From a virus, in IMG/VR virus record IMGVR_UViG_3300036827_000153, positions 1 to 38,779 of that record: a DNA stretch of 38,779 nucleotides; one strand, 5' to 3'. Below the pieces are notes generated by a model, which saw only the letters and a program-made list of their open reading frames with translations, made no database searches and was not told the DNA's origin. This document shows, piece by piece, positions 4,351-38,260 of the stretch; positions within the stretch are counted from its first letter, which is position 1, and the number at the start of each line of letters is the position of its first letter. The position numbers were made by a program, and so were the translations under genes.

Positions 4351-4544
4351 TGATTTATCTCAGAAGAAAATTGAGCTATGAATTTATCTACAAGGCCGTA
4401 TTGGAATTGTTTCAGTATGACAAAGACAAGACAAACCTATGGTGGATGGCAAAGAACCCACAACTAAAAGGACTGTCCCCTTTTGAAGTAGTCAAAAAGG
4501 GAAAGGGACGAAGGATCATGCAACTCATAAACAGGTGTGGATAA
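4350..4544 (+). CDS. MbcA/ParS/Xre-type antitoxin C-terminal domain protein (DUF2384-like)
   Basis: The 64-residue product carries a pattern typical of the toxin-binding domain of Xre/MbcA/ParS antitoxins: LELFQYDKDKTNLWWMAKNP (helix, then W..xxNP), followed by LKGLSPFEVVKKGKGRRIMQLI. In antitoxins this domain holds a RES-type toxin and follows an N-terminal DNA-binding part; here that part is absent and no RES-like gene is adjacent. It may neutralise or mimic a host antitoxin, or may simply use the fold for another purpose. Coupled by TAATG to genes on both sides. Confidence 0.5.
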   Translation: MIYLRRKLSYEFIYKAVLELFQYDKDKTNLWWMAKNPQLKGLSPFEVVKKGKGRRIMQLINRCG

Positions 4545-24545: not shown

Positions 24546-24860
24546 GGGTTAAGTATCTTTACGCCAATTATCAACTATCCGTCCCTTTAATGCTATGTCT
24601 ATGTGTTGACAATATACAAGCAATCTTGGACACTTTAAGATTGCCTCCCCTAATAATATATATATATTTATTTATTATGGTAGTTACTATGTAAGGCAAA
24701 ACGGGGCATAACTCTAATTACATTATTAAAAACATATAGTTATATAAATCAAAAGCAGTATATAGCTTGTAGATAAAAAAGTAACAACTTTTCTCAAAAA
24801 TCCTGTCCACACGCTATACAGACATTATTCACAGAAATTGTGGATAACTTTTCCTTGGCA
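24546..24860. other. Candidate replication origin: A/T block and DnaA-box cluster
   Basis: This gap of over 300 bp has no gene. It holds an 8-bp inverted repeat GCAATCTT/AAGATTGC (24620-24627, 24637-24644), a very A/T-rich stretch at about 24651-24677 (TATATATATTTATTTATTA), a second A/T-rich stretch at 24716-24780, and three exact TTATNCACA DnaA boxes next to its right end. An easily melted block beside clustered DnaA boxes is the layout of bacterial oriC and DnaA-dependent plasmid origins. The lack of a phage polymerase or primase supports use of host DnaA and replisome. Confidence 0.6.
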
Positions 24861-36154: not shown

Positions 36155-36517
36155 TCAGTCTGGCAACGGTGCCAAGCCCAAATAGTCTACAACGATCGCC
36201 TTGGCCTGCTCTGCTCCTTTTGCGACCTCGGCCCTGTAGCCCTCCTTACGCAGGAAATCGATCCATTCCTGTTGCTTTTCCGAGATTGTACTTCCAGACA
36301 CCCTTTTAAGCTCGATATAGAGCCCGTGGTACAACGATCTTGGCAATGGAATACATAGGTCAGGCACCCCAGGTGAGACCCCGGTGCGCTTGAACTTGAC
36401 GGCCTCGACAATGTCCCGCTTCCCGCCGTTCGGCACGGCGTAGTGTCGGATGTCCTTGATTTGCAACCAGGCAACAAGTAACGCCTGTTCCTCGTCCTCA
36501 CTTTTAATGATTCGCAT
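36155..36517 (-). CDS. VRR-NUC domain nuclease
   Basis: The 120-residue protein covers one VRR-NUC domain of the PD-(D/E)xK superfamily: E at EEQALLVAWLQ, HYAVPNGGKR, then GVSPGVPDLCIPLP (catalytic Asp) and GLYIELKRVSG (ExK), ending with a helix and YRAEVAKGAEQAKAIV. Such phage nucleases cut branched or damaged DNA and often lie near replication or packaging genes. AGGAGGCC precedes the ATG. The gene is directly downstream of the iteron-like region. Confidence 0.8.
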   Translation of the reverse strand: MRIIKSEDEEQALLVAWLQIKDIRHYAVPNGGKRDIVEAVKFKRTGVSPGVPDLCIPLPRSLYHGLYIELKRVSGSTISEKQQEWIDFLRKEGYRAEVAKGAEQAKAIVVDYLGLAPLPD

Positions 36518-36533: not shown

Positions 36534-36547
36534 GTTCTACGTAGAAC
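36534..36547. promoter_or_regulatory. Perfect 14-bp palindrome
   Basis: GTTCTACGTAGAAC is a perfect palindrome just upstream of the VRR-NUC gene and 1 bp before the first TTGTCCCT repeat. It could bind a dimeric regulator or replication protein, for instance an RHH or HTH protein. It is the only perfect palindrome of this length noticed in this region. Confidence 0.5.
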
Positions 36548-36548
36548 G

Positions 36549-36788
36549 TTGTCCCTGTCTGTCTCTCTCTAGCAGTGAAAGGGACAGACAAATAATATAT
36601 TATATATAAATATATAATATATATAATAATATTGTATTGTCCCTCATGCTCTAATTTGAGGGACAGAAGACAAAGTAGTCATTTTTTATACAGTACAAGA
36701 AATGAACAATTCTTGTCCCTGATTTGTCCCTACAGGGACAGAAAAAACAATATATAAATCAATATGTTTCCCTTGTCCCTTTGTCCGC
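36549..36788. repeat. Iteron-like TTGTCCCT array around an A/T block (candidate origin or operator array)
   Basis: In the 277-bp gap between the VRR-NUC and helicase genes, TTGTCCCT occurs at 36549-36556, 36637-36644, 36713-36720, 36724-36731 and 36773-36780, with a variant TTGTCCGC at 36781-36788. Inverted copies AGGGACAG lie at 36580-36587, 36659-36666 and 36734-36741. TGTCCCT-AC-AGGGACA (36725-36740) is a perfect inverted repeat. A pure A/T block of over 40 bp (about 36590-36633) sits among them. The layout suits an iteron-type origin next to the helicase gene; a multi-site operator is the alternative. Confidence 0.65.
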
Positions 36789-36794
36789 AGTGTA

Positions 36795-37916
36795 TCAAGA
36801 CAACATCCATATTTTGCCTCTTTTTCCGCTAATTGAGAACGTTTCGTATATTTTTAACTCATCCTTGGCTTTGTATAATCGGTTGACTGAAAACCCTCTC
36901 TCCATCGCTTCTTTCCTTATTTCCGATAATGGAACTGATCCATTCTTGAGCATTTCGATCAAAAATTGTTTAACTTCTTCAAGTTTCGGAGAGTCAAGGG
37001 ACAAACCGGCGTTTAAGATTTCATTAGCAGTTTTGTCGATCTTTTCGTCCAGCCATTCAATCTTGCTGGACTCTATCTGACCATCTATCATGAGTCCTTT
37101 TATTTGATAAACGAACCCCGTTTCGTCCTGGCCGATATTGTTTTTAATCGGCAAAAACAAACGCCGCTTCGGGTCATCCGGGTCTTTCATGATGCCGTAC
37201 ACGATCCTGGCCGCTGCTGCAAAGCCGATGCTGCCCATGACACGATAGATTGCGTTTTTATGAGACATGCCAGACGGTTTTGAAAAATGACTATTGATGA
37301 CGATGGCAAGGTTGTGGCGTTCGGCAAGTGCCATAATGATTGCCATGGCCCGACGTATTTCCTTGTTTTTGTTTTCATCGACCGACCCCAAATAGATAGA
37401 AATGGGATCAACAATCATGAGCTTGTAATTGTTTTTCTTTATTTTTTCCTCTAAGTCGGCCATGTGCTCAACCAAACAAATGGCGTCGTAATAAGGATTG
37501 CCATTCTTGTCCCTTTTTTTCAGTCCCTTCACATTATCGATATGGTTGAGGTCTGCACCGAGCGCCAGTAGCCGCGGCTTGATAGTGTCCTCTGAGCTGT
37601 CCTCGCCCGAAATCAGTAGCACCCGTCCTGCCTCGCAAGGTACCGGTTCAAAATGGAAACACCCTCCTTTGCTGACAATGCTCGCGATGTAAAGCAGCAG
37701 TTGCGACTTGCCGACACCGGGCTCGCCCGCAAACAACGTGAGCTTTCCATAGGAGATGACGTTCTTCCAAAGCCAGTCGATTTTCTTGACTTGCACGTCG
37801 GCCAGGTTTTCGATTTCGATATCAACGGCCTCAGGTTCACCGTAAATGTGTTGGACTTTCTTATACTGGTTGATCTCTTCCTGTGAGACCATAAACTCGG
37901 TAGGTTCCTTAGTCAT
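36795..37916 (-). CDS. AAA_25/RepA-like RecA-fold replicative helicase
   Basis: The 373-residue protein has Walker A GEPGVGKS at residues 64-71, strands with AGRVLLISGEDS, Walker B KLMIVDPISIYLG near residue 170, IVINSHFSKPSG (sensor-like His), and a C-terminal helical domain with a winged-helix look (PLSEIRKEAMERGFSVNRLYKAKDEL). This is the layout of AAA_25 helicases related to RSF1010 RepA and DnaB-type ATPases. It is the only replication enzyme recognised in this genome. The start overlaps the previous stop by ATGA. The iteron-like region follows its 3' end. Confidence 0.8.
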   Translation of the reverse strand: MTKEPTEFMVSQEEINQYKKVQHIYGEPEAVDIEIENLADVQVKKIDWLWKNVISYGKLTLFAGEPGVGKSQLLLYIASIVSKGGCFHFEPVPCEAGRVLLISGEDSSEDTIKPRLLALGADLNHIDNVKGLKKRDKNGNPYYDAICLVEHMADLEEKIKKNNYKLMIVDPISIYLGSVDENKNKEIRRAMAIIMALAERHNLAIVINSHFSKPSGMSHKNAIYRVMGSIGFAAAARIVYGIMKDPDDPKRRLFLPIKNNIGQDETGFVYQIKGLMIDGQIESSKIEWLDEKIDKTANEILNAGLSLDSPKLEEVKQFLIEMLKNGSVPLSEIRKEAMERGFSVNRLYKAKDELKIYETFSISGKRGKIWMLS

Positions 37917-38260
37917 TTTTTCAGTTCCTTGTTAAAAATAAATGATTGTTTTCGTGAGATATAAGTAATTTTGGTGGCACCGTAAGCAAAAAAGCAGAAA
38001 GAACAAGACCGGACAAAATCAACGGATGAATGGCCTGTGTCTACAAGATAGACCTCTGTATTTTTAAGCGGCCAGGTAAAATGAGTAGGAGAAGTGTAAG
38101 GAGGCAAACAAAGGACATAAGGCATTTCAAAAGGAGGTGACCTTAGGTCTTGGGCCTTCTCGAGTGAGAGAGGCCCCATAAAGATAATGGCGACTTTGTG
38201 GTACGCATCGAAAGAGGCGTTTTGCTGGAGATGTTCTCCGTAAGGGGCAAGCGGCTTCAC
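37913..38260 (-). CDS. Hypothetical protein upstream of the helicase, 115 aa
   Basis: The start codon is GTG at 38260, 7-8 nt after AAGGAA. The product begins KPLAPYGEHLQQNASFDAYHKVAIIFMGP, has LCLPPYTSP and VYLVDTGHSSVDFVR in the middle, and predicts alternating strands and helices as in a small Rossmann-type fold. It is coupled to the helicase by ATGA, so a replication-related role is possible. No named family assigned. Confidence 0.55.
   Translation of the reverse strand: MKPLAPYGEHLQQNASFDAYHKVAIIFMGPLSLEKAQDLRSPPFEMPYVLCLPPYTSPTHFTWPLKNTEVYLVDTGHSSVDFVRSCSFCFFAYGATKITYISRKQSFIFNKELKK

Follow-up and report, generated by a model that had tools for sequence, protein, structure and literature searches.

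A candidate iteron origin in a phage genome, probably read by the C-terminal domain of the adjacent RepA-like helicase

Introduction

What is the role of a short word that is repeated many times between a helicase gene and a nuclease gene of a phage, and which protein reads it? The question is raised by a locus at 36.5-36.8 kb of the window, by which we mean the whole 38,779-nt stretch of DNA analysed here. This virus record carries a 127-bp direct terminal repeat and is therefore probably a complete, circularly closed phage assembly; it encodes a P22-like portal and a terminase. The original prediction had described the locus as having the look of an iteron origin, and had left its reader unnamed. 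Having compared the locus with its relatives, we put the probability at about 0.76 that it is an iteron origin whose reader is the C-terminal domain of the neighbouring helicase itself, such that initiator and helicase are one protein, and that this pair of reader and word has been switching repeatedly.

Results

The repeat array and its A/T block

The repeat array is real and goes beyond what shuffled sequence would provide. The 7-mer TGTCCCT occurs eight times within 231 bp (Table 1), on the plus strand at 36550, 36638, 36714, 36725 and 36774 and on the minus strand at 36580, 36659 and 36734, whereas the maximum for any 7-mer with at least three G/C in 60 local dinucleotide-shuffled copies was four per 260 bp. 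At least eight copies of one octamer in both orientations had been predicted, which holds for the 7-mer but not for the octamer: TTGTCCCT is found five times, every time on the plus strand, and the three inverted copies read CTGTCCCT, with C in place of the first T of the octamer, so that the unit common to all copies is the 7-mer. Two further elements are present as originally described. The perfect dyad TGTCCCT-AC-AGGGACA occurs once in the window, with none expected, and the eight cores flank a block of A and T only, which lies between the helicase and nuclease genes (recognised by their AAA_25 and VRR_NUC profiles) and is, at 44 bp, the longest A/T run of the genome.

The array also contains a 30-bp element whose identical counterpart in the relative L009 is inverted with respect to the helicase gene, set in an array that is otherwise 76% identical between the two. 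This possibly reflects an inversion between repeats, or a site that is read in either orientation; an exact search with the 24-bp core of the element matched L009 only. Rfam gave no match. As single-stranded DNA, the minus strand of the array (36534-36794) folds far better than shuffles (z -6.6), which is expected because inverted repeats are present. Additionally, a copy of the own word lies within the helicase gene of both the window (36997-37004) and L009 (about 5873), in linker codons before the winged-helix domain, the two copies having opposite orientations.

Table 1. Features in and around the candidate origin, in window coordinates (strand "." where a feature is not stranded).
Feature	Position	Strand	Remark
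VRR-NUC nuclease gene, downstream of array	36155..36517	-	VRR_NUC E 2.6e-12
Candidate iteron array, TGTCCCT x8	36550..36780	.	5 plus-strand, 3 minus-strand copies
Pure A/T block, 44 bp, candidate DNA-unwinding element	36590..36633	.	
30-bp element GACAAAGTAGTCATTTTTTATACAGTACAA	36669..36698	+	100% identical in L009 (6160-6189), inverted relative to helicase gene
Dyad TGTCCCT-AC-AGGGACA, 7-bp arms	36725..36740	.	
AAA_25 / RSF1010 RepA-like helicase P0001, 373 aa	36795..37916	-	Pfam AAA_25 E 9.7e-30
C-terminal winged helix-turn-helix (about residues 309-371), proposed array reader	36804..36992	-	AlphaFold2
Predicted recognition helix (residues 344-353)	36858..36887	-	N345 and R346 track the array word
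Small gene overlapping helicase start, no assigned function	37913..38260	-	weakly conserved in 5/8 relatives

An array that stays with the helicase while its word changes

Searches with the helicase and with the conserved DNA pattern, the latter yielding L123, provided eight relatives with more than 50% helicase identity (Table 2). In each of the eight an array occupies the corresponding position, right behind the stop codon of the helicase gene, and in most members little DNA separates that codon from the first word copies; an A/T run of 22-44 bp sits between the last copy groups, in the same interval, in the eight full members including the window. The own word of each array, ACCGACA in two relatives and ACGGACA in two others, is present in 8-12 copies at a density of 28-49 per kb as against 0.09-0.61 per kb elsewhere, and a cross-table of words by members is nearly diagonal. 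The commonest spacing of close copies on one strand is 8 bp, seen in 20 of 39 pairs. The window's literal octamer is absent from the arrays of all relatives, yet this absence does not speak against the original prediction, since it is the word that varies and not the presence of the array: along with the helicase, the relatives keep the array, the A/T block and the position behind the gene, and an iteron origin is still the best fit.

Table 2. Array words (gene sense) and recognition-helix residues in the window and its eight relatives.
Member	Helicase identity to window	Word and copies	Residues 345/346/349	Variable part of word
Window		AGGGACA x8	NRK	GG
L009	82-83%	ACCGACA x10	DRK	CC
L036	67-70%	ACGGACA x8 + ATGGACA x4	ARA	CG or TG
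L037	about 53%	ACAGACA x8 + ACGGACA x4	GRA	CA or CG
L038	about 53%	ACGGACA x10	NRE	CG
L039	about 53%	ACCGACA x11	DRK	CC
L115	60-64% (L115/L117)	ACTTACA x11	PIK	T for G4
L118	63-67%	ACCGAAT x7 + ACCGAAA x4	DRL	CC
L123	63% over part covered	GCGACAT x11		

Among the flanking genes, VRR-NUC homologues occur in seven of the eight relatives. We considered the array as a companion of this nuclease and rejected the idea: in the stretches examined, the VRR-NUC relatives L015-L022 have neither a P0001-like helicase nor such an array beside the gene, and the array thus goes with the helicase. On the other side, directly before the helicase, L038 and L039 carry a Toprim primase-like gene (L038 4055-4960), a position taken in most other members by a small gene.

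The same comparison bears on whether the array could be an operator only, bound by the helicase or by another phage regulator for the downstream genes, with replication starting elsewhere. The array does lie between two co-directional genes, its dyads look like operators, weak sigma-70-like matches fall on the A/T block at chance level, and in iteron systems one site can serve as both origin and operator. However, 8-12 copies in about 250 bp together with a conserved A/T block are much for an operator, no promoter-like site at the array rises above chance, and the gene behind the array varies (L036 and L115 are without VRR-NUC directly after it) whereas the helicase always stands before it. 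We consider a purely regulatory role unlikely.

Beyond this group, phage, plasmid and genome collections yielded only helicases below about 35% identity, and most of the more distant AAA_25 relatives (26-36% identity) showed no clear comparable array near the gene. Other both-orientation arrays were seen downstream of distant AAA_25 genes (L042 3996-4200, L088 6024-6330 and, in the Corynebacterium plasmid pCG2, L033 2376-2680) as well as upstream of them (L045 3437-3700, L070 4367-4500), hinting that the arrangement is wider than this phage group.

A candidate reader on a RepA-like motor

The motor of the helicase P0001 is of the RepA/RecA type. Pfam assigns it to AAA_25 and weakly to DnaB_C and KaiC, the family profile matches RSF1010 RepA (1g8y) at 7e-9, and in Foldseek comparisons the core aligns with RepA at TMt 0.65-0.67, its closest folds being RadA, RAD51, RSF1010 RepA and DnaB. 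A hexameric ring and helicase activity would go with membership of the RSF1010 RepA-like class. AlphaFold2, given 45 aligned relatives (mean pLDDT 89.6), joins to the RecA-type core a C-terminal domain with helices at residues 310-323, 330-339 and 344-353 and strands at 357-360 and 368-371, and the same winged helix-turn-helix is obtained when this domain is predicted alone. Foldseek relates the domain to PadR, MarR, Fur and other winged-helix proteins, none of them below E 0.001, and Pfam and PHROG gave no match below 0.01 for either C-terminal domain. On the strength of the predicted fold and of the comparisons below, the C-terminal winged helix-turn-helix is a strong candidate for the reader of the word.

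Residues of the recognition helix were compared with the words of the respective arrays (Table 2). Among 373 columns, column 345 alone sets the three members with ACC words, which have Asp there, apart from the rest; the seven other sister-balanced triples, taking one member per sister pair, had no separating column, and the floor of p in this sister-swap test is 1/8. R346 is replaced by Ile solely in L115, whose word is also the sole one to have T instead of G4. Both GG and CG words are found with N345, and there is therefore no one-residue code. On a coarser scale, changes concentrate in the winged-helix part in two pairs of sisters with differing words, with 16/67 there versus 5/237 in the motor in L038/L039 (p 5e-8) and 38/65 versus 33/247 in L115/L118 (p 7e-13). 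A partial Mantel test of the three helix residues against word distance, with motor distance controlled, gave r 0.42 and p 0.087 on eight sequences, which is not significant at the 5% level, and in a scan with a 5-residue window other segments ranked above the recognition helix. The evidence is thus strong for a linkage of the C-terminal domain with the word, and suggestive for single-residue recognition rules.

A different phage or host protein might instead read the origin and load the helicase there, as in RSF1010, where a separate protein, RepC, opens oriV and RepA is loaded at the melted origin (PMC8965321); the small upstream gene, present in five of the eight relatives, would be compatible with such an arrangement. 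However, the helicase is the sole window gene detected in all eight relatives, some of whose records are fragments, the small upstream gene was not detected in L038 or L039 although both bear the array, and changes of the word accompany changes of the helicase's C-terminal domain. A separate reader thus seems to us improbable, a shade more so than an operator.

Concerted change of the word and routes of switching

When the arrays of L038 and L039 are aligned, the variable word position is changed in 10/10 copies, nine of them to the exact L039 word, as compared with 0/60 changes at the other word positions and 46/219 (21%) in non-word columns. Between the window and L009, the variable word positions are changed in 15/16 cases against a background of 52/210, and the other word positions in 4/40, all four stemming from one copy that is shifted by a base. 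The binomial probabilities of such concerted change are about 1.7e-7 (L038/L039) and 1e-8 (window/L009). Given that copies change in concert while the other positions stay, the words of an array are under strong constraint and switch together. Repeats can homogenise and an 8-bp tandem spacing is common, but the copies stand in both orientations, at scattered conserved positions in less conserved DNA, and change only at N2/N3 with the other word positions kept, as the counts for L038/L039 given above show. This makes it extremely improbable that the words differ through gene conversion, slippage or low-complexity drift without any reader.

Switching of a reader and its word may have followed more than one route. 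Nucleotide identity between L038 and L039 drops from 93.9% in the motor to 82.6% in the reader domain and 80.5% in the array, and is back at 93.8% in VRR-NUC; between L115 and L118 it falls from 80% (motor) to 56% (reader domain) and 44% (array). This suggests that in both pairs reader domain and array were exchanged as one cassette. Such an exchange is evidence of linkage and not of contact, and in L038/L039 other genes diverge too. The window and L009 are without such a step in identity, and there the switch therefore has the look of numerous parallel changes in place. L123 combines a similar motor, placed within the group by a tree on 38% of columns, with another C-terminal domain and, in an array at the same place, a new word, and its switch looks like a domain replacement. 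This group of few genomes may hold three routes to a new origin identity.

Discussion

The locus combines the marks of an iteron origin, namely a short word in eight copies and an adjacent A/T-rich element, with a candidate initiator, namely a helicase whose gene adjoins the array and whose predicted winged helix-turn-helix covaries with the word. In the model that we propose, several helicase subunits would bind the repeated word via their C-terminal winged helix-turn-helix, occupation of the words that flank the A/T block could help to melt it, and RepA-like rings would be placed on the two exposed strands. With binding, melting and motor placement all predicted for the helicase, initiator and helicase would be one protein. 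The pair of reader and word would switch either in place, all copies together, or via a cassette of C-terminal domain and array. We infer origin function as well as physical binding, melting and loading, the latter three by analogy with SaPI Rep, Cch2 and P4 alpha.

Several known systems offer points of comparison. The C-terminal domain of SaPI Rep and SCCmec Cch2 recognises short iterons downstream of their own gene (PMC7581432), and here, too, an array of words lies directly downstream of a helicase gene whose product has a predicted C-terminal DNA-binding domain. However, their motors are of the DUF927 or D5/Primase_Cterm types (PMC7581432), whereas the motor described here is AAA_25, RepA/RecA-like and found in phage genomes, and many word variants occur among close relatives. 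In phage P4 alpha, in the account cited in PMC4234260, a winged-helix domain on the replication helicase binds origin repeats, after which unwinding follows. The likeness lies in a winged-helix domain on a helicase and in origin repeats, with binding being predicted in our case; the P4 alpha chain differs in including a Toprim-type primase, whereas the helicase protein here showed no primase domain. RepA of RSF1010 acts in plasmid replication and its solved helicase fold is close to the motor of P0001, but here the RepA-like motor carries a winged helix-turn-helix in the same protein, and both roles, divided between RepC and RepA in RSF1010, may sit in one chain.

A further parallel is offered by the RepA_N/ori modules of PLE in Vibrio cholerae, in which the DNA-binding domain of the replication initiation factor RepA covaries with iterons, modules swap, and selection for switching may come from a nuclease directed at the origin (PMC8263062). 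While repeated switching of a DNA-binding domain with its word would be common to both, the predicted reader is fused to a helicase in the phages studied here, and the difference between the window and L009 looks like concerted change in place rather than a module swap. Overall, the candidate origin type does not form a new category but varies the theme of the self-loading initiator helicase, with another motor; the novelty lies in a probable reader and in a natural series of what are probably reprogrammed reader/word pairs.

If this reading is true, at least one group of phage AAA_25 proteins would be one-protein initiator-helicases that join a RepA-type motor to its own origin reader, and our comparisons suggest that the reading specificity of this motor has been switched repeatedly in nature. 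Natural pairs, such as helicases that are 94% identical and go with different words, would allow a few residues to be tied to base recognition, and the question of how and why the specificities of an initiator and its origin change jointly would become directly testable in laboratory strains. A bolder version, to which we would give even odds, holds that phage AAA_25 proteins bearing a C-terminal winged helix-turn-helix act as self-loading initiator helicases, that the code in this group pairs D345 with CC and R346 with G, loss of the Arg going with loss of the G, and that origin identity is repeatedly reprogrammed, perhaps in escape from parasites or nucleases that target origins.

Finally, the window contains other features that are relevant to where replication may start. 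The cumulative GC-skew minimum falls at 37,841, about 1.1 kb from the array, a position that is confounded by gene orientation. The original prediction had also raised the question of two initiation modes, and a second candidate origin does lie about 12 kb from the array, in the non-coding stretch 24551-24860. This stretch holds the only other A/T run of at least 25 bp in the window (24651-24678) as well as a DnaA box without mismatch on the minus strand (24839); another DnaA box is found at 4536.
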